The notes under the pieces were generated by a model that was not told the origin of the DNA, did not search any database, and saw nothing but the letters and a program-made list of their open reading frames with translations. This document shows, piece after piece, positions 29,014 through 39,298 of a DNA stretch of 64,000 nucleotides. Within the stretch, counting starts at the first letter, position 1; each line of letters opens with the position of its first letter. The stretch is from Colwellia sp. (GTDB lineage: Bacteria; Pseudomonadota; Gammaproteobacteria; Enterobacterales; Alteromonadaceae): the NCBI RefSeq assembly GCF_013214175.1, contig NZ_JABSPA010000001.1, positions 336,409 to 400,408 on the forward strand, written 5' to 3'. The translations under genes were made by a program, and so were the position numbers.

Positions 29014-29685
29014 ATGAGTGAAACAGTATCGGTAGAAAAAAATGTTGATAGTAACCTAGATCAAGACGTTAATATTCGAGCAACGTATTTAAGTGCTCAT
29101 GAGTTAAAGTTAGCCGCGTCACTTTTGTATCAAGCCTATCATGATGACCCTGTTTTTTTAGAAATATTTAATAGTGATAAAGAAGATTATGAACAGCGCC
29201 TTCGTGGTGCTATTCGAGAAGAGCTAAATGCTTTTTGGCAAGCAAAACAACCCATGGTTGGCTTGTATCTTGGAGAAGCCATGGTTGGCGTTGCTTGTAT
29301 TAACAGCCCTGATGAAACGTTGGCAAGTGATCGCTTTTGGCATTGGCGCCTTAAAATGCTGCTTAATTCGGGTTACTTTAGTACTAAGCAAATGATGCAA
29401 AAAGAGCAAACCGTATTGGCAGCAGTACCAATGAAGGTTTTCCATTTTCTATCATTTATTGCTGTTCACCCATTACATCAGCAACATGGTTTTGGCCATT
29501 ACTTAATGGCCGCCGTTAATACAGTGCTAGATGAACATCCAGATAGTGAAGGAGTTGCCGTTTATGCTACCTCAGGAAAATTTAAAGAGTTCTTTAAACA
29601 TGTTGATTATCAAACGGTAAAAGAAGTCACCGTCGGAAATGTTTGTGGCTCTGTCATGGTTCATTATCGAGATAAAGCGGAATAA
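29014..29685 (+). CDS. GNAT family N-acetyltransferase
   Basis: 223 residues. The acetyl-CoA-binding motif A is seen in FIAVHPLHQQHGFGHYLMAAVN (about 150-172), within a GNAT fold covering about 22-220. The first 20 residues are acidic and variable. SD AGGAGA precedes the ATG. The substrate is unknown; the long loop between strands (WHWRLKMLLNSGYFSTKQMM) is like other GNATs that act on small molecules. A terminator follows. Confidence 0.8.
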   Translation: MSETVSVEKNVDSNLDQDVNIRATYLSAHELKLAASLLYQAYHDDPVFLEIFNSDKEDYEQRLRGAIREELNAFWQAKQPMVGLYLGEAMVGVACINSPDETLASDRFWHWRLKMLLNSGYFSTKQMMQKEQTVLAAVPMKVFHFLSFIAVHPLHQQHGFGHYLMAAVNTVLDEHPDSEGVAVYATSGKFKEFFKHVDYQTVKEVTVGNVCGSVMVHYRDKAE

Positions 29686-29750
29686 CTGCACTTTATTGAC
29701 TTACTCTAGGGCTATATTTAGCCTTATCTCCCCCTGTTTACTTCCCCAAT

Positions 29751-29783
29751 AAAAAATAGCACCGATAAAGTGCTATTTTTTTT
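29751..29783 (+). terminator. Terminator of the GNAT gene
   Basis: The stem AAAAAATAGCAC/GTGCTATTTTTT with a 7-nt loop and T run. It insulates the upstream gene from the first CsrB-like RNA; the GacA-type box begins at its last base. Confidence 0.85.
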
Positions 29784-29800
29784 GTGAGACATGTCTTACG
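29783..29800 (+). promoter_or_regulatory. GacA/UvrY-type box upstream of CsrB-like RNA 1
   Basis: TGTGAGACATGTCTTACG matches the GacA/UvrY consensus TGTAAG-N6-CTTACA at 10 of 12 fixed positions. It lies about 175 bp upstream of the predicted RNA start, close to the usual distance in Pseudomonas and E. coli. A second conserved stretch, GTGAGACATATTGGCAAT, follows at about 29806 and also occurs before RNA 2. Confidence 0.7.
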
Positions 29801-29932
29801 TCACTGTGAGACATATTGGCAATCCCTGCTAAAATCGAGAACATTAATTTATTATGTGGTTGATTTTTAATAAGTTATCTCAACTTCTGTTTGTTACATT
29901 GTTTTTACATACTAATGGTGGCCGTTAACCAG

Positions 29933-29961
29933 CCTCGATAACTAAGATTTACGTGTATTAT
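29933..29961 (+). promoter_or_regulatory. Promoter of CsrB-like RNA 1
   Basis: The -10 TATTAT (29956-29961) has a weak -35 CCTCGA (29933-29938) at 17 bp. The same layout precedes RNA 2. A weak -35 with an upstream GacA box suggests activator dependence. Predicted start about 29968. Confidence 0.5.
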
Positions 29962-29966
29962 TAACC

Positions 29967-30634
29967 ATGTCAGGAAGACAAGGAGCAGGGGGCTTCAGCG
30001 TTACTTGTAACGTGGTTAGGGAAGATGCAATGTTGCTAAAATGGAATGGCAGCGACATAAGGACTTACTGAGGACAGTAAACATAACTTAGGGATTGAGT
30101 TGAATAAAAAGGACGCAATGGATGCAATTCAAGGAAGATATGAGTAAGGATACTTGTTAAGAGTTTAAGGATGAACTCTAGTGGTAGGAAACCACGATGG
30201 AAAGATATGAACAAGGATGTGGCTTGGTAAGGATTATCAAGATTAGCGAAACAGTCGTTATGGATAATGACTGAAAGGAATGTTAAAAAAGGAAGTGGAT
30301 TAAGGAAGCAGTGTCAGGAAGACGCTAATTAAGGATGATATGAACAAGGATGTGACTTGGTGAGGATAACCAAGGTCAGGAAGACAGTAGTTAGGAACGG
30401 CTACTAACAAGGAGTGTTAACTTAGGAAACTAAATCAAGGAAGTCGGGTCAGGAAGACACTAGTTAAGGATGATTGAATGGGGGACTTTACAGTAACCCA
30501 AAATGGAAATGAGTGGACTCATAAAGGATATACTAAGGATAGTATTCAAGGACGAAATGAGATCATTAAATATGTGTGCAGGACGCACCGTATAAGCTAG
30601 TTATAGAGATGCGACTCAATGAGTCGCATTTTTT
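29967..30634 (+). ncRNA. csrB: CsrB-type CsrA-sequestering RNA, copy 1
   Basis: About 668 nt with no credible reading frame but roughly 39 GGA triplets by my count, mostly as AAGGA, CAGGA or AGGA. Many sit in the loops of short hairpins, for example GTGGT-AGGAA-ACCAC, ACT-GAGGAC-AGT and GTG-CAGGAC-GCAC. This is the signature of CsrB/RsmZ RNAs, which titrate the translational regulator CsrA. It ends in a terminator (ATGCGACTC/GAGTCGCAT plus T run, 30609-30634). GacA-type box, promoter and a syd-queF neighbourhood all agree with csrB. E. coli CsrB is about 370 nt, so this one is nearly twice as long. The 5' boundary is predicted, not exact. Confidence 0.88.
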
Positions 30635-30756
30635 ATTTATAGGTTATAAGTTTTTATAGCTTATAAAAAGTTCATTTTCTGCTAACTACTTTGATTGTTA
30701 TTTGTTCTCGCTTAACTTCCCTAATAAAAAATACACTGACAATAAGCCCTTTCTTC

Positions 30757-30774
30757 TGTAAGAGATCTCCTACA
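30757..30774 (+). promoter_or_regulatory. GacA/UvrY-type box upstream of CsrB-like RNA 2
   Basis: TGTAAGAGATCTCCTACA matches TGTAAG-N6-CTTACA at 11 of 12 fixed positions. The centre is about 175 bp upstream of the predicted start of RNA 2, the same spacing as for copy 1. The conserved GTGAGATATATTGGCAAT follows directly. Confidence 0.75.
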
Positions 30775-30906
30775 GCAATGTGAGATATATTGGCAATTCC
30801 TGCTGAAATCCAGAAGTTAAATGATATACCTCATTGATTTATCGTTATTTATTCTAAGTGTTATCTATTACATTCTTTTTACACTTTAAATTTTGTTGTT
30901 AACCCA

Positions 30907-30935
30907 CTTCGATAAATTAAATTTAGGCCTACTAT
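30907..30935 (+). promoter_or_regulatory. Promoter of CsrB-like RNA 2
   Basis: The -10 TACTAT (30930-30935) has a weak -35 CTTCGA (30907-30912) at 17 bp. The upstream block TATTACATT.TTTTTACA (about 30867-30884) is also conserved in copy 1. Predicted start about 30941. Confidence 0.5.
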
Positions 30936-30939
30936 TAAG

Positions 30940-31697
30940 CATGTCAGGAAGACAAGGAGCAGGGAGCTTCAGCGTTACTTGTAACGCGACTAGGGAAGAT
31001 GAATGTTGTTGAAATGGAATGGCGGCGACATAAGGACTTACTGAGGACAGTAAATATAACTTAGGGATTGAGTTGAGTAAATAGGACGCAGAGGATGCTA
31101 TTCAAGGAAGATATGAGTAAGGATGCTGTGTAAAAGTGAGTATAGGGAAAACCTAAAGCAGGATGCTTTGATTATAAATAATACTTGGTGTTATTTTATA
31201 AAAGGGTTTAACAAGGAGGCTTTAAGGACGAAGTCTAGTGGTAGGATGCCACTATGGATGATATGAACAGGGATGTGGCTTGGTTAGGATTACCAAGGTC
31301 AGGAAGACTGTAGTTATGGATTACTACTGAAATGGATGTTTAAACAGGGATATTAGCTAAGGAAGGTTAATGTAGCAAAGGGTGTCAGGAATACTGTAGA
31401 TATGGATGACTACTGAAACGGATGCTTAAACAGGGAGATTAACTAAGGAAAGTTAATTTAGTAAAGGGTGTCAGGAAGACGCTAATTAAGGACGATAAGA
31501 ACAAGGACCTGGCTTGGTTAGGATGACTAAGCTCAAGAAACTGAAGTTATGGACGGCTTCTAAAATGGATATGAGTGGACTCATATAGGATAAGCTAGGG
31601 ATAGTTGTTCAAGGACGAAATGAGATCATAAAATATGTGTGCAGGATGCACCATATAAGCTAGTAATAGAAATGCGACTTAATGAGTTGCATTTTTT
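30940..31697 (+). ncRNA. CsrB-type CsrA-sequestering RNA, copy 2
   Basis: About 757 nt with roughly 41 GGA triplets by my count and no credible reading frame. The first about 190 nt are nearly identical to copy 1 (both begin ATGTCAGGAAGACAAGGAGC), and the 3' end is also close, including GTGTGCAGGATGCACC and the terminator (AATGCGACT/AGTTGCATT plus T run, 31671-31697). The middle differs by expansion, including an exact-length 86-nt duplication. A tandem paralogue of copy 1 with its own promoter and GacA-type box, so the two are separate transcription units. A csrC-like role is possible. Confidence 0.87.
31299..31470 (+). repeat. 86-nt tandem duplication inside CsrB-like RNA 2
   Basis: Two units, 31299-31384 and 31385-31470, both 86 nt, start with TCAGGAA and share ACTGTAG.TATGGAT.ACTACTGAAA.GGATG and the later AAACAGGGA, CTAAGGAA and GTAAAGGGTG patterns at about 80 to 85 percent identity by eye. 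A third TCAGGAAGAC begins at 31471. Each unit adds about five GGA sites. Confidence 0.8.
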
Positions 31698-31823
31698 ATG
31701 TGTAGTGATAAATGTTTCTTATCAATAACAGTTAATTTCTCTGCGTTCAATACTCCCCTCAATGGATGTTAACAGCTAGCTAATATTGTAATAACAGCTT
31801 ATTCTAATGGCAGTTAGAGTCAG

Positions 31824-32195
31824 ATGAAAATTGGGCAGAACATGTTGGATTTATTAGCAAAGCTTGCTACCAAGCTGCAACCCTTTCGCAAGTTGAGTTA
31901 TCTACTTGCTGTAATCCTCGTTGGTATTATTTTTAGCCAATTGCAGCAAACAACTTCACAACAACCGACCAGCCCTTATGCATTATTAAGTTTTATTGCT
32001 TGCATATGGTTACTACTATTCAATATATTGCTTTCTCTCTTTGATAATATCCCCAAAATTAATACCGACTCGCCAGGAATCTTTATCCGCATAAAATTAA
32101 AAGTGCAGCGAAGTTTGTATCACATCTTGGCATTGTTATTTATTGGTCTAACGATAGTGATAGTATTTTTATCTTTGAGAATGCTCAGAGTTTAA
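31824..32195 (+). CDS. Hypothetical membrane protein
   Basis: 123 residues with about three transmembrane helices (near 25-43, 51-70 and 98-118) and a cytoplasmic basic loop. I recognise no family. It begins about 125 bp after CsrB-like RNA 2 and ends before a terminator shared with trpA. The SD is weak, so the exact start is uncertain; a Met seven residues in is an alternative. Confidence 0.55.
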   Translation: MKIGQNMLDLLAKLATKLQPFRKLSYLLAVILVGIIFSQLQQTTSQQPTSPYALLSFIACIWLLLFNILLSLFDNIPKINTDSPGIFIRIKLKVQRSLYHILALLFIGLTIVIVFLSLRMLRV

Positions 32196-32311: not shown

Positions 32312-33163
32312 TTACTCTCTGGTCGCTGCTTTCATCTCACCGACAAAATGCGTTAACTCAGTCAGCATCTTGTTCTTATCGGTTAAATTATCTTCAATTA
32401 TTTTAACCACAGCCGAGCCACTAATTGCACCTAGTGCACCTGCGTTAAGAGCGTCTTTAACTTGTTGCGGTGTAGAAATACCAAAGCCTAATACGGGTGG
32501 GGCGGCATGATATTTTGTTAAATTTTCAATTAACTGACTAGCTGATGTGGTAATTGTATTTTTAGGGCTCTCTGCACTGTCTACACCTGTTACACCTGTG
32601 CGACTTAAAACATAGGTATAGCCACGCGAATAAGAAGATACTTCCCGTAAAGTTTCATCGCTGGCGTTAGGTGGCGCGATAAAAATAGGTGCAACACCAT
32701 GTTTTAATGCAGCTTCTCTAAACGGTTCACTCTCACGAATAGGTACATCGGCTATTAGGACTGAATCTACTCCAGCATCGCTCATATCACGATAAAAGCT
32801 ATCAATACCACGGGCAAAAACTAAATTACCGTAAAGTAATAAGCCAATAGGTATTTGTGGGGCGTATTCACGTACTTGCTTTAATATATCAATGCAAATG
32901 TCGGTGTTAATACCGGCACCTAAAGCGCGCAGGGCCGCTCTTTGAATTGTTATACCATCGGCGCTTGGATCAGAGAAAGGAATACCTAACTCTAAGGCAT
33001 CGGCTCCGGCATCGATTAAACTTTTAATAACCGCAAAAGACTGTTCAGCATTAGGATCGCCAATCATAACAAAAGGGATGAAAGCTCGTTCATTCTTTTC
33101 TTTTAACGTAGCGAACGCCGTTTGATAACGAGCACCCGCTTGCTGAATATTTGATTGTGACAT
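32312..33163 (-). CDS. trpA: Tryptophan synthase alpha subunit
   Basis: 283 residues. Cleaves indole-3-glycerol phosphate to indole and glyceraldehyde 3-phosphate in the alpha2-beta2 complex. The catalytic acids are E58 in [11 protein letters not shown] and D69 in PSADGITIQ. The phosphate-binding GFGIS and [10 protein letters not shown] motifs are present. It shares one base with trpB at 33163, indicating coupled translation. It is the last gene of the trp operon. Confidence 0.97.
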
Positions 33164-34422
33164 TAAGCCTCTCCTCTATGTTTAACTGTTGTTGCTGATG
33201 CAGCTTTATCAGGTGAAATAATGGCCTGTACATGAGCTAAATCTTTATCACCACGACCAGATAGGTTTACTAGATAAATAGTTTCTGTCGTGACTGATTC
33301 TGCCATTTTTAAAGCTTGTGCAAGGGCATGAGCTGATTCAAGTGCAGGTATAATTCCCTCTTTTTTTGCTAATTCTTGAAATGCAGCTAACGCCTCATCA
33401 TCATTAATGGCGACATATTGTGCTCGACCGGTATCTTTTAAGAATGCATGTTGTGGGCCTACCGCAGGGTAGTCAAGACCAGCAGATACAGAGTAAGACT
33501 CTTGAATTTGGCCATGCTTATCTTGCATTATATAAGTGTAGTTTCCATGCAACATGCCCTTTGTACCGGCTACAAGCGTTGCACCATGCTGATCGGTTTC
33601 AATACCCTTACCACCGGCTTCAACGCCGATAAGTTTGACACCTTCTTCATGAATAAAGTCGTGGAACATGCCAATGGCATTGGAGCCACCACCGACTGCG
33701 GCAATAACATAATCAGGTAAACGACCTTCCTCTTCATAAAACTGTGCTTTTGCCTCTTCACCAATCATTTTTTGAAATTCCCTAACTATGGTCGGGAATG
33801 GGTGAGGGCCAGCGGCAGTACCTAATAAGTAGTGAGCATTTTCATAATTTGCCGACCAATCTCTAAGCGCTTCATTAACGGCATCTTTTAACGTGCCAGA
33901 GCCAGCCGTTACCGGAATCACTTCTGCGCCCATTAATTCCATGCGAAAAACATTGGGCTGTTGTCGCGCACAATCCACAGCACCCATATAAATTTTACAT
34001 TTTAAGCCTAGTAATGAACAGGCAATCGCGGTGGCAACACCATGTTGGCCAGCGCCAGTTTCAGCGATTATTTCAGTTTTACCCATGCGTTTAGCGAGCA
34101 GTGCCTGTCCTAACACTTGGTTAGTTTTATGAGCGCCGCCGTGCAATAGATCCTCACGCTTTAAATAAATTTTAGCTAGCGGATTTTTTACAATATTTCG
34201 ACAACAAGTTAATGGTGTAGGTCGTCCGGCATATTTGGTTAATAAGTTATTGAACTCGTTTAAAAAGGCTTCATCGGTTTGAGACTCAATAAAAGCTTGC
34301 TCTAATTGCTCTAATGCCGGGACGAGTAATTCGCCGACATACATACCACCAAACTCACCGAAATAGGCGGGTAAGGTTTCTTTTTTTGATGACTTATCAC
34401 CTGTTTTAATATCGTTTAGCAT
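33163..34422 (-). CDS. trpB: Tryptophan synthase beta subunit
   Basis: 419 residues. A PLP enzyme that joins indole and serine. The PLP lysine is K99 in HGGAHKTNQ, the catalytic Glu is E121 in AETGAGQHG, and the phosphate-binding GGGSNAIG is intact. An N-terminal extension of about 15 residues is present relative to E. coli. It lies 1 bp from trpCF. Confidence 0.98.
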
Positions 34423-34423
34423 G

Positions 34424-35866
34424 TTAATAATTCCTAATTTGCGAAAATACTTGTGTTAGCTTTTCGCTTGATTTAATACCTGGGCTATCTTCAACACCTG
34501 AGTTGAGGTCTAGACCAAATAAATCCACCTGAGTTAACTGTTCAAGGGCTTGATTAATATTGTCAATGTTTAGTCCACCAGCTAAAAAGCTGGTGGATAA
34601 GTTTTGCTCACTTAAGGCTAAAACTTGCCAATTAAATGCTGCACCGCTACCTGGGCTTTGGCCATCGAGGACATGATGACAGACACTATGATTGAGCAAA
34701 GGTACGCTATCTGCTACCGGGCTTGCTTGCCATACTTGACAATAGCTACAGCCATGCTCGGCAAGTTCCACTATTAAGGCATCAATATAATGAACATCTT
34801 CACTGCCATGAAGTTGTACGGCACTTAACTGTAAAGTCTTGACCAAGTCAATAATTTCATCACGTTCGTTATTAACAAAAACACCAACATACTCTAACTT
34901 AGGTATTGCTTTAATAATGTTTTGGGCTTGCGCTTTGGTAACATAGCGAGGTGATTTTTCAGCAAAAATCAGACCACCAAAACGTGCACCGGCATCCGCG
35001 GCCGCGCTAGCATATTTAGCGTCTGTTAAACCACATACCTTGTTATTGCCATAAATAAGTTTACGACATGCTAAGTCAATATCTTGATAAACGTTATTTT
35101 TAGGATCCATTAACGAGCTGCCCACTAAAAAACCATCAACAGCAGGCGCTAACTCTCTTACTTGAGCATTACTGTATATGCCGGACTCAGAGATAATGAT
35201 CCTATCGTCGGGTAAGCTAGGGGCAAAATCAAAAGTACGTGCAATATCGGTACTTAAGTCACGTAAGTTTCGATTGTTGATACCTATCATCTTTGCATTA
35301 AGCTTTATTGCTCTATCACGTTCATCATAGGTAGAAATCTCCGTTAAAACGGCTAAGTTATATTGCTCAGCAACGGCTGCTAACTCAAGGTACTCATCAT
35401 CAGAGAGTACACTGAGCATTAATAAAATAGCGTCAGCGCCATAGTATCTTGCTAGGTAAACTTGGTAGCTATCAACAAAGAAGTCTTTATTCAGTACCGG
35501 ACACTTTACCGACTGCGTTACTGTTTTTAGGTAATCAAAGTTACCTTGAAAATACTTTTCATCGGTTAATACCGATATTGCTGCAGCATATTTATCATAA
35601 ATCTGGCAAATAGCTTTAACATCAAAGTCAGGACGGATTAGTCCTTTAGACGGTGAGGCTTTCTTGCACTCAAGAATAAAGCCCGCATAGGGCTTATCCA
35701 CAGTTCTTGTTAATGCCGCGTACATATCTTTAGTGGTCGGTACCAGGTCATTGATGAAACTAGCTAATGGTTTGCTTATCTTTAGGGCGTCAATTTCTAT
35801 ACGCTTATCATCAACGATTTGTTCTAAGATATTTTTCTCTGCTGAAATATTAATACTAGTAGTCAT
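34424..35866 (-). CDS. trpCF: Bifunctional indole-3-glycerol-phosphate synthase / phosphoribosylanthranilate isomerase
   Basis: 480 residues. An N-terminal TrpC (beta/alpha)8 barrel (about 1-262; [20 protein letters not shown]) is fused to a TrpF barrel (about 263-480; [35 protein letters not shown]). The fusion is typical of enteric and related gammaproteobacteria. A longer frame reaches 36037 inside trpD; the ATG at 35866 is right after the trpD stop and starts at the conserved N terminus. Confidence 0.96.
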
Positions 35867-35867
35867 G

Positions 35868-37001
35868 CTATTTTTCAGCCTTTTGGTCAGTGGCGTTGGA
35901 TAATATTTCTTGATTAGAAAGCTCAACCAAGCTTGATAATGTCGATAAGCCTTTGCCTGAGGCAAGTACTTCACTGGCAAGTTGCGCAGCTTCCTTGAGA
36001 GAGTCAGCTTTGTTATGTAAATACAATAACGCTGCACAGTTTATGATTACCGCGGCATTGTGGGCATCCTGTCCTTGACCCGATAAAATAGCTTTAATGA
36101 TATCGGCATTTTCTTGTGGAGTACCACCTTCAATCTCTGCAAGGGCGTAATTGTTTAAACCAAAGTCTTGCGGCGTAAAAGTACGTTCAATCAATTCACC
36201 CTGGGTAATTTCAATAACTTGAGTATCCCCATGCAAAGCAATTTCATCTAGTCCACTACCATGTACAACAAAAGCACGTTGCACACCGGTAAGTTGTAGC
36301 GCTTGTGCCATGGGCATTAATAACTCGTGGGTATAAACGCCAAGTAACATAATGTTTGGATGAGCGGGATTGACTAGCGGTCCTAAGATATTAAATATAG
36401 TGCGAATACCCATAGCTTTTCTCACGGGGCCTGCATGCTTGAAACCAGAGTGATAGGCAGGTGCGTACAAAAAACATAGGTTTGTTTGTGCTAAACAATG
36501 ATTTGCTGTTTCAGGCGACATGGCCAAATTTACGCCAAACGCTTCGAGTAAATCAGCAGAGCCAGACATGCTGGAAACACTTCGGTTACCATGCTTAGCC
36601 ATTTTTAAACCGCAAGCCGCAGCTAAAATCGCCGCCGTGGTAGAAATGTTAATAGTATTAGCACCATCGCCGCCAGTGCCAACGCAGTCGGCGACAATAA
36701 TTTCTTCACTGTCTCGCTTAGGAAATGAAGTGGCAGCAGCGCGAATAGCGATTGCAGCTCCAGCTATTTCTTCAGGTGTTTCACCTTTTATTTTCAGCGC
36801 CGTTAAGACACTTGCCATAAACGCGGGCTCGACATTACCTTGTAATACTTGCTGAAAAAAATCATGACTTTGTGTTTGGTTTAAGTCATTGCCATCGACT
36901 AATATCGGTAAAACTTTGTTGATGTCAGGTGTGCTGATATTTGACGAGTTGATATCTGTTGTGTTAGTACCTTTGGAACCAGTATTTTGTGAATTAGTCA
37001 T
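35868..37001 (-). CDS. trpD: Anthranilate phosphoribosyltransferase
   Basis: 377 residues. Transfers phosphoribosyl from PRPP to anthranilate. The PRPP motif CVGTGGDGANTINIST and the KHGNRSVSS segment are intact. The first 26 residues (rich in Asn, Ser and Thr) are an extension beyond the catalytic domain. It is a separate gene, not fused to trpG as in E. coli. SD TGGAG precedes the ATG and the trpG stop is 1 bp away. Confidence 0.97.
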   Translation of the reverse strand: MTNSQNTGSKGTNTTDINSSNISTPDINKVLPILVDGNDLNQTQSHDFFQQVLQGNVEPAFMASVLTALKIKGETPEEIAGAAIAIRAAATSFPKRDSEEIIVADCVGTGGDGANTINISTTAAILAAACGLKMAKHGNRSVSSMSGSADLLEAFGVNLAMSPETANHCLAQTNLCFLYAPAYHSGFKHAGPVRKAMGIRTIFNILGPLVNPAHPNIMLLGVYTHELLMPMAQALQLTGVQRAFVVHGSGLDEIALHGDTQVIEITQGELIERTFTPQDFGLNNYALAEIEGGTPQENADIIKAILSGQGQDAHNAAVIINCAALLYLHNKADSLKEAAQLASEVLASGKGLSTLSSLVELSNQEILSNATDQKAEK

Positions 37002-37002
37002 T

Positions 37003-37632
37003 TTATGCTCCAGTAACTTTGTTATTGAGTGATGGCGCTAAGTTAAGTAAATATTGAATACTTTGCGCTAACAAGGTGGCACCAAATGTCGTTAATATTG
37101 ATTCTGGATGAAATTGAAAAGCTAAAACAGCATCTTCTTCACGGCTTATGGCCATGCACATACCGTTATATTCAGCGATAACATCTAACGATTGTGGAAT
37201 ATCTTTACCTATCAATGAGTGATAACGCGCAACGGGTAAAGGATTTTTAATACCCTGAAAAGGGCCACTAGCACTATGGGTAATATTGGAGGCTTTCCCG
37301 TGGACAATTTCTTCGGCTCTGTCGACACGGCCGCCATAGTGTTCTATTAGCGCCTGATGACCCAAACAAATTCCCATCATTGGAATACGGCCAGCACACT
37401 TTTTAATAAGTGCCATCAAACAGCCTGCCTTTTGGGGCTCGCCAGGACCTGGAGATAACACCAATAATACCGGCTCTGCAGTTTTCTGGGTGTGTTCAAG
37501 CATTTTTTCAAAAATAAAATCAGCACTGAGGGTATTTCGATAGACACTTGGCTCAAAACCTAAACATTGAAATTCATCAACCAAGTTATAGGTAAAAGAG
37601 TCTAAGTTATCGAGCATAAATAATTTAGTCAT
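37003..37632 (-). CDS. trpG: Anthranilate synthase component II (glutamine amidotransferase)
   Basis: 209 residues. Releases ammonia from glutamine for TrpE. The class I amidotransferase triad is visible: C89 in GICLGHQA and the His and Glu of FQFHPESI near residues 175-180. It overlaps trpE by 8 bp. It could also serve para-aminobenzoate synthesis, which sequence cannot settle, but its place in the operon supports a Trp role. Confidence 0.96.
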   Translation of the reverse strand: MTKLFMLDNLDSFTYNLVDEFQCLGFEPSVYRNTLSADFIFEKMLEHTQKTAEPVLLVLSPGPGEPQKAGCLMALIKKCAGRIPMMGICLGHQALIEHYGGRVDRAEEIVHGKASNITHSASGPFQGIKNPLPVARYHSLIGKDIPQSLDVIAEYNGMCMAISREEDAVLAFQFHPESILTTFGATLLAQSIQYLLNLAPSLNNKVTGA

Positions 37633-39298
37633 GTGCTTGCTCCGTCATCGAAATATTGGTATCTGTATTTGCCGTGAAAATGGCATTGCTCTTTTCAATG
37701 GCATTAAGAACCGCTTGAGCCTTTTGCTTGGTTTCATTGGCTTCACTTATCGGATCTGAGTCATAAACAACACCAGCGCCAGCTTGTACTTGGGCAATAT
37801 TATCTTTTACAAAGGCCGAGCGTATAACAATACAAGTATCCATTTCACCTGTGCCAGTTAGGTAACCAACCGCGCCGCCATAACTGCCACGCCTTTTACC
37901 TTCTACTTCTCTAATAAGTGAAGTAGCTTTTACTTTGGGTGCGCCTGAAAGTGTGCCCATATTCATACAAGCCTGATAGGCGTGCAAAGCATCTAAGTCG
38001 GTTTGTAAAGTACCGCATACTCGGGAAACTAGGTGCATTACATGGGAGTAGCGATCAACTTTCAGTAACTCGGCAACATAACGGCTACCCGGTTGCGAAA
38101 CTCTGGCAATATCATTACGCGCTAAATCAACCAGCATAATATGTTCTGCCGACTCTTTTTTGTCTTGCCTGAGTTCTAGCTCAATACGGCTGTCTAAGTC
38201 TAAGGAAATATTGCCGTGTTTATCAAAACCGCGCGGGCGAGTTCCTGCTATCGGATAAATTTCAACATGACGATTGCTGGCTTGATATTTTAATGCAGAT
38301 TCTGGCGAAGCACCAAAAATACAAAAGTCACTATCTTTTAAATAAAACATATAGGGACTTGGGTTACTTAATTTTAGTGCTTTATATGCGGCAAGGGCAT
38401 CAAAACAAGGTAGGGTAAAAGTACGTGAAGGTACCACTTGAAAAATATCACCCGCTCTGATGTTTTCTTTTAATTGTTCAACTATCTGACAATAGCGTTC
38501 GTCACTAATGTCGACTTGCAGCTCTTCATTAAATCTTTGTTTATCATTAACGTCATTAAGTGAAGGACTTAATTGGGAAACTTGTTCGGCATCTACAGGA
38601 GTCGACAGTACGTCTTTGATCTGAGCTACACGGTTAGATATTGCCAAATGACTTTGTTTAGCTTGTTCAGAATCGTTATAAGTAAAAATATTACCTATAA
38701 TTTCAGTGCTCTGTAATTCATGGTCAATGATAACTAAGGTTTCGGCTAAATAATAAACAAAATCAGGGCAAGTATTATCACCATCAGCAACAGCGGGTAA
38801 CTCCTCTGCTATTGCCATCAGGTCAAAGGCAAAAACGCCACCAAGGAATACGGCAAAGGGGTGACTGTTATCATCGGTGAGTTGATTAAATATCCGTAAA
38901 CTGTGCAAGGAGTTTATTGCGCTTAAACGAGACTTTTCATCAAGGTCGCTAGCAACGTCACGAAATGTTGCTTGAAATGATTTGCCATCTTCAGTGAAGC
39001 TGATTTTGGCGTGCTCTTTTAATTGAACCGCAGCGAAGTTAATAGCTGCTGCACCATTTAAAGATAATGCTGAAAAAGTGACGACGTTGCCATTACAGAC
39101 AATTTTTACAGCGGCATCAGTTAAGAGTAAGCTTTTTAATAAGTGCTTTTTATCAATCTCGGCAGATTCTAATAAGATATTATGCTGTTGTTGGTGACAT
39201 AATAATTGGTAAACACTTAACGGATCATTTTGATAGTGGCTACTATCTTGTAAGGTGATCACTTCACCTTTTATATAATGGGGTAAAATTTTAGTCAT
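37625..39298 (-). CDS. trpE: Anthranilate synthase component I
   Basis: 557 residues. Makes anthranilate from chorismate. The N-terminal LLES (42-45) is the allosteric Trp-binding motif, so feedback inhibition by Trp is expected. The chorismate-binding domain shows GDIFQVVPSRTF, DLARNDIARV and MGTLSGAPKVKA. It is somewhat longer than E. coli TrpE (520). The first gene of the operon, preceded by a leader region with two Trp-rich peptides and an attenuator. Confidence 0.97.
   Translation of the reverse strand: MTKILPHYIKGEVITLQDSSHYQNDPLSVYQLLCHQQQHNILLESAEIDKKHLLKSLLLTDAAVKIVCNGNVVTFSALSLNGAAAINFAAVQLKEHAKISFTEDGKSFQATFRDVASDLDEKSRLSAINSLHSLRIFNQLTDDNSHPFAVFLGGVFAFDLMAIAEELPAVADGDNTCPDFVYYLAETLVIIDHELQSTEIIGNIFTYNDSEQAKQSHLAISNRVAQIKDVLSTPVDAEQVSQLSPSLNDVNDKQRFNEELQVDISDERYCQIVEQLKENIRAGDIFQVVPSRTFTLPCFDALAAYKALKLSNPSPYMFYLKDSDFCIFGASPESALKYQASNRHVEIYPIAGTRPRGFDKHGNISLDLDSRIELELRQDKKESAEHIMLVDLARNDIARVSQPGSRYVAELLKVDRYSHVMHLVSRVCGTLQTDLDALHAYQACMNMGTLSGAPKVKATSLIREVEGKRRGSYGGAVGYLTGTGEMDTCIVIRSAFVKDNIAQVQAGAGVVYDSDPISEANETKQKAQAVLNAIEKSNAIFTANTDTNISMTEQAHD

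Follow-up and report, generated by a model that had tools for sequence, protein, structure and literature searches.

Two adjacent GGA-rich units in a Colwellia genome are very probably paralogous csrB genes, encoding CsrA-sequestering RNAs of a Colwellia species. The reading is based on anatomy, conservation, covariation, pathway genes and module matches, all of which were observed, and we infer that both units are transcribed, are controlled by UvrY and IHF, and bind and titrate CsrA. A sequence-only reading of the window (the whole 64,000-nt stretch of DNA that was analysed) had proposed CsrB-type RNAs of unusual size at this place, and structure, covariation, relatives and pathway genes now support it. 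Positions 29686-31823 contain no convincing protein gene and hold the two related units:

29969-30634, + strand, CsrB-type RNA unit 1, 666 nt, 39 GGA
30943-31697, + strand, CsrB-type RNA unit 2, 755 nt, 41 GGA

The left neighbour of the pair is a GNAT-type acetyltransferase gene (29014-29685) and the right neighbour is a small frame (31824-32195) with no Pfam or NCBIfam match. Tryptophan genes, read by eye, occupy 32312-39298 on the - strand and include a fused indole-glycerol-phosphate synthase/PRA isomerase frame. A phage origin of the region was rejected, as blastn against a phage collection gave no match.

Unit lengths, for which the conserved GTC and the end of the T run were taken as limits, agree with the ~670 and 757 nt proposed earlier; E. 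coli CsrB, given as ~370 nt, is 369 nt when measured in the same way. The counts of 39 and 41 GGA in two related units without protein genes were also confirmed, while the chance expectation of about ten GGA proved too low. Mononucleotide shuffles gave means of 19.6 (unit 1) and 21.1 (unit 2) with maxima of 32 and 33 in 2000, and dinucleotide shuffles gave means of 22.1 and 24.6 with maxima of 30 and 31 in 60, because the unit sequence is G- and A-rich. The GGA excess in both units is real, about 1.7- to 2-fold and not fourfold. The units are the two highest GGA peaks of the window (counted per 700 nt on both strands; mean 4.6, sd 3.7) and TCC is absent from both.

Each unit is preceded by a similar control region and followed by its own terminator:

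29783-29800, + strand, box of unit 1 (UvrY/GacA type), TGTGAGACATGTCTTACG, starting 186 bp ahead of the 5' end
29805, half-site-like TGTGAGACATATTGG after the unit 1 box
29853-29865, - strand, IHF-like site of unit 1, at -116, 1 mismatch to YAANNNNTTGATW
29956-29961, + strand, -10-like hexamer TATTAT of unit 1, aligned place in relatives
30605-30634, + strand, intrinsic terminator of unit 1 (fold, alignment, consensus scan)
30757-30774, + strand, box of unit 2 (UvrY/GacA type), TGTAAGAGATCTCCTACA, starting 186 bp ahead of the 5' end
30827-30839, - strand, IHF-like site of unit 2, at -116, 1 mismatch
30930-30935, + strand, -10-like hexamer TACTAT of unit 2, aligned place in relatives
31668-31697, + strand, terminator of unit 2, stem with a G-U pair and then a T run (fold, alignment)

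The boxes had been noticed before, at about 175 bp upstream; they are present, and the distance is 186 bp. Unit 1 has one box mismatch and unit 2 has two. The only zero-mismatch places for the box pattern in the same genome are the two unit boxes from which the pattern was written, and at up to two mismatches 31 places were found against 35 for the reversed control. The box is informative through its fixed place and not by itself. The layout of box, ~186 bp, TATTAT/TAATAT-like hexamer and GTCAGGA recurs in Colwellia and in other genera of the family. Box and GTC were 183-188 bp apart in 44 of 46 Colwellia units and 177 bp apart in the other two, and as the distance was sought within 172-200 bp only, it is the clustering inside this range that is informative. 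Sites within one mismatch of the IHF consensus (YAANNNNTTGATW) were found at -116 ±1 in 28 of the 46 units, including both in the window; over all places scanned the median count was 0. The sigma-70 consensus scan yielded no consensus -35 and no promoter pair at the -10-like hexamer of unit 1. A pattern combining box and 5' end was found in 29 of the 39 Colwellia genomes, missing unit 1 of the window, which has a box ending in G; across the order it matched 10 of 394 genomes, all in the same family, and is too strict to inform on other families. Elsewhere in the genome, two adjacent UvrY-box-like palindromes were seen at 1479-1517 of locus L039 (C2:10368-10406), ~220 bp from a Zot-domain gene of filamentous-phage type. 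No GGA-rich stretch or RNA lies nearby, and the pair was rejected as a csrB site.

The proposed mechanism begins with a BarA-type kinase, which would activate UvrY, and phosphorylated UvrY would then bind each gene's palindrome, near -186, with IHF probably assisting by bending the DNA near -116. In E. coli, IHF is needed for best binding of UvrY at csrB and for best expression, according to the passages available from PMC4682653. Two separate transcripts, of ~666 and 755 nt, would each stop at their own terminator. The units are only 308 nt apart on the same strand, and S. oneidensis csrB2 gives bands of ~700, 600 and 450 (PMC3171408, in the part available), both of which would suit one read-through RNA of ~1.7 kb spanning both units, the second box being inert. 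This is very unlikely, as unit 1 ends in a 13-pair stem and T run, identified by the consensus scan, and the stem is paired in 22 of 22 rows of the 3' end alignment (A2). Each unit also has its own box and -10-like hexamer, and the copies are far apart in two relatives, ~33 kb in G135 and ~10 kb in G205. A terminator at the end of each unit had been claimed at the outset, and both ends do fold terminator-like; the consensus scan lists that of unit 1 only.

The predicted folds are those of a CsrB-type RNA, with many GGA, mostly unpaired, in a chain of hairpins, and covariation points the same way. In the MFE folds both G were unpaired in 77% (unit 1) and 78% (unit 2) of GGA, and 27% and 33% of other G were unpaired. 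Among 60 dinucleotide shuffles per unit the unpaired means were 44-48% for GGA and other G alike, and the largest difference was 0.24 and 0.20 (units 1 and 2), compared with 0.50 and 0.45 observed. Fold energies were -158.0 for unit 1 (shuffled mean -126.4, sd 5.8) and -185.9 for unit 2 (shuffled mean -154.2, sd 6.8), ~5 standard deviations under the shuffles. Unpaired GGA numbered 30 and 32, and 16 of 39 (unit 1) and 13 of 41 (unit 2) were located in hairpin loops, thus the suggestion that many GGA lie in loops is correct for these, though not for all. Each RNA would form a chain of short hairpins and unpaired stretches exposing ~40 GGA, and these motifs would bind and sequester CsrA dimers, releasing the mRNAs under CsrA control. 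Strong buffering of CsrA by the two copies, or separate timing of them, as proposed earlier, would be conjecture.

Covariation was assessed in an alignment (A1) that covers the first 196 bases of 22 units and draws on 16 genomes. Eight hairpins were present with 96.5% of cells paired, and double-sided changes occurred at 10 of 41 pairs. The covariation score was 0.233, against a shuffled mean of 0.170, and was reached by none of 500 shuffles; with the partners slid it was at most 0.091, a comparison that favours the structure because it was read from one alignment row. Further pair types were no more frequent in A1 than in shuffles (35 against 34.4). RNAalifold alone predicted 35 pairs in A1, nine with double changes. 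In the alignment of the last 140 bases a double change was seen at 1 of 22 pairs, and this part says little on covariation because it is too conserved.

A search with the Rfam CsrB model (RF00018), put forward earlier as a check, gave no match in the window at the gathering score of 71 bits, which is a detection threshold and not a biological feature. Sub-threshold scores in the window were 27.6, 22.5 and 14.3 bits (best E 3e-5). Unrelated Rfam families scored 24.9 and 23.8 bits in the same search, close to the 27.6 of CsrB, and the CsrB model, when run at E up to 10, matched 8 of 14 control genomes, archaea included, therefore a weak RF00018 match alone proves little. None of 17 relative loci passed the cut-off, whereas E. 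coli csrB scores 380 bits. At a looser limit a CsrB match was found in five of eight relative loci, with none in the other three (L068, L074 and the giant L081); the best were two shorter relatives, L067 from another genus with 57 bits (E 6e-13) and L060 from Colwellia with 54.5 bits (E 4e-12), still below the cut-off. Two other weak places on other contigs of the same genome (21.4 bits, E 0.0013, and 14.8 bits) were rejected as csrB copies, having at most 7 and 8 GGA per 400 nt. At its cut-off RF00018 misses the Colwellia lineage, so that surveys relying on it undercount csrB genes.

The lack of an Rfam call at cut-off, together with an internal tandem repeat in unit 2 (31298-31480, + strand; period 86, 2.1 copies, 88% matches), might suit a GGA-rich repeat RNA with a function other than CsrA binding, or small protein genes. 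We regard this as extremely improbable. The longest of the open reading frames of at least 30 aa that overlap the units is 49 aa, on which ground a protein-coding reading was rejected; the hairpins covary and carry GGA in their loops, the control region is csrB-like, and relatives match Rfam CsrB significantly even though below threshold.

The csrB reading is also in keeping with the pathway genes, since CsrA, UvrY and a BarA-type kinase, as a CsrB system has them, are all encoded in the genome. The UvrY equivalog scored 386 bits against a cut-off of 280 and lies directly before uvrC, which is followed by a frame read by eye as pgsA. There is one BarA-type sCache_4 gene, of a family that among 14 control genomes had matches in E. 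coli only. Three CsrA genes exceeded the cut-off: one follows the alaS frame (read by eye) and the extra two are located at L111 2652-2852 and L112 3162-3464, the latter with a longer C-terminal tail.

A 22-base stretch of the 5' end was scanned in GTDB genomes, which returned 15 stretches, all from Colwellia, and in the family sample 45 of 196 genomes had a blastn match to unit 1. A covariance model of the csrB 3' end (R1), built partly from the genomes then searched, matched 39 of 39 Colwellia genomes, G217 through two partial matches at a contig end only. Two csrB places (E < 1e-9) were found in 14 of the 39: G000 (the genome of the window), G038 (C. echini), G078, G135, G197, G202, G203 (C. 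psychrerythraea GAB14E), G204, G205, G209, G210, G221, G223 and G226. In eight of these the two places lie close together, sharing contig and strand (G000, G038, G197, G202, G203, G209, G223 and G226). Pairing is ordinary for Colwellia and not unique to the window. In the window's own genome blastn with the whole region returned only itself, without a further copy, and the 3' end model matched both units and, weakly and in antisense, the first terminator.

In a tree of unit ends the two copies of the window are each other's closest relatives (support 0.84) and those of G198 and G206 join them next (weak support, 0.51), while the short copies of G197, G202, G204 and G223 form a group of their own (support 0.95). 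At least some csrB doublings must therefore be old, and the window pair is either younger or has been kept alike by exchange. One copy, the more divergent unit 2, could be a decaying or silent duplicate, since its branch is longer (0.097 against 0.037 for unit 1), its box is the weaker, with two mismatches against one, and its terminator stem contains a G-U pair. We judge this unlikely, because the GGA number, unpaired GG and fold energy of unit 2 are as strong as those of unit 1, two copies are kept in 14 of 39 Colwellia genomes, and a contig of G212 is 98% identical to unit 2 over 754 bp. This identity runs from 31071 on and includes the 86-base repeat, which is thus not an assembly slip of the window's genome alone.

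The sizes of these csrB-type genes were compared across Colwellia. R1 gave 53 csrB places, after merging the two partial rows of G217 and leaving out 12 rows with E >= 1e-4; seven were dropped for lack of a clear 5' end with box, three at contig ends, leaving 46 measurable units from 35 genomes. Length ranged from 307 to 1185 nt and GGA number from 15 to 68 (correlation 0.97), with one GGA per 19.3 nt on average. The largest gene is the single copy of G198 (C. marinimaniae MTCD1, L081 on contig C10), with 1185 nt and 68 GGA, followed by the single copy of G206 (Colwellia sp. TT2012, L088 on contig C103), with 1028 nt and 53 GGA; units 2 and 1 of the window rank third and fourth by length. These four measure 1185, 1028, 757 and 668 nt in the size table and 1183, 1026, 755 and 666 nt by the GTC-to-T-run count. 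Fifteen measurable units from other genera were 300-519 nt, and four more had no terminator recognised by the pattern. In one other genus a second GGA-rich island (L072 3261-3571) has a terminator-like end and no good UvrY box; it is possibly a csrC-like RNA under other control.

Both giant genes, which come from draft assemblies, hold tandem arrays of period 147, with 4.4 copies in G198 and 3.3 in G206, and the 147-nt module contains nine GGA. By blastn with this module, partial matches counted, five stretches were found in G198, four in G206, three in unit 2 and two in unit 1, with one each in 23 other units and none in 19 of the 46. The partial matches in the window are:

30204-30295 and 30311-30413, GGA-module matches in unit 1
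31253-31371, 31384-31461 and 31468-31570, GGA-module matches in unit 2

Two processes would have produced the large size, tandem copying of this GGA-rich module within the gene and duplication of the gene as a whole. The hadal strains MTCD1 and TT2012 are described, in the available text of PMC7542103, as obligate piezophiles that come from depths of 10,918 and 9161 m and have an average nucleotide identity of ~95%. C. piezophila (G200), also piezophilic, has one ordinary unit of 659 nt, so that depth alone does not explain size.

Extra CsrA matches were found in 7 of 39 Colwellia genomes (G000, G212, G135, G198, G206, G210 and G196), or eight with the weak G209, and one of the 39 had no CsrA match. 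The median GGA total was 63.5 in six genomes with extra CsrA against 25 in 24 genomes with one (one-sided p 0.010), a value that ignores kinship among related genomes. Nine of the 39 (G201, G202, G204, G205, G212, G214, G217, G224 and G226) were left out because the csrB total or CsrA count was incomplete. G198 was counted as having extra CsrA though its third match is partial and below the cut-off, and G209 (62 GGA) was counted as having one, its second match just reaching the 27-bit cut-off. That sponge size and CsrA number rise together across Colwellia is a lead, against which runs G196, with 18 GGA and two equal CsrA matches. A tentative extension, which we hold to be possible rather than probable, is that one Colwellia clade has an elastic sponge, in which a block of ~147 nt and about nine GGA undergoes head-to-tail copying and the gene itself doubles, with binding capacity set by repeat number and keeping pace with extra CsrA genes. 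A high GGA total would be reached by two routes, two genes or one giant; the totals are 80 in the genome of the window (two genes), 68 in MTCD1 and 53 in TT2012 (one giant each).

Comparison with known systems separates the familiar from the new. E. coli CsrB resembles the window units in its many GGA, its terminator and its UvrY palindrome ~190 bp upstream (box at -191), and an exact match to the IHF consensus lies between its box and promoter (at -105 and, in the other reading, at -102), but it has 22 GGA in 369 nt. Shewanella, in the passages available from PMC3171408, has two close csrB genes, CsrB1 and CsrB2, with a UvrY box each, adjacent in S. putrefaciens CN-32 and split by a transposase gene in S. 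oneidensis, and csrB levels drop >100-fold in uvrY and barA mutants; in contrast to the window the genes are predicted at 420 and 421 bp, with csrB2 bands up to ~700, and those passages do not describe module copying. The Pf1 Csr RNA of Pseudoalteromonas fuliginea, a cold marine relative, has a GacA-type box and regulates glycogen synthesis in E. coli, but its 21 GGA are about half those of a window unit and all 260 reported matches are Pseudoalteromonas (PMC9927453, in the part available). In Vibrio and Aliivibrio csrB copy number also rises by duplication, and A. salmonicida csrB3 adjoins csrB2; growth there is by whole-gene copies, in a family of 100 to >400 nt, as far as the available text of PMC6262261 goes. 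The predicted unit lengths exceed those given for csrB genes in these passages of PMC3171408 and PMC6262261.

CsrB RNAs, their doubling and side-by-side copies, as in Shewanella and Aliivibrio, are already known. Neither csrB in Colwellia nor csrB growth by internal module copying was found in the open-access literature, subscription journals being mostly uncovered; a prediction paper of 2006 may list Colwellia. New here is the size, and the module-wise growth of csrB is what merits following. CsrB is the textbook case of an RNA that regulates a protein by sequestering it, yet it is hard to test how many CsrA sites this requires and whether selection acts on their number. Colwellia offers natural sponges of 15-68 GGA (46 units) with a common control region and ends, in genomes with one to three CsrA genes, and the two relatives with further module copies offer a natural experiment on how regulation depends on sponge size.
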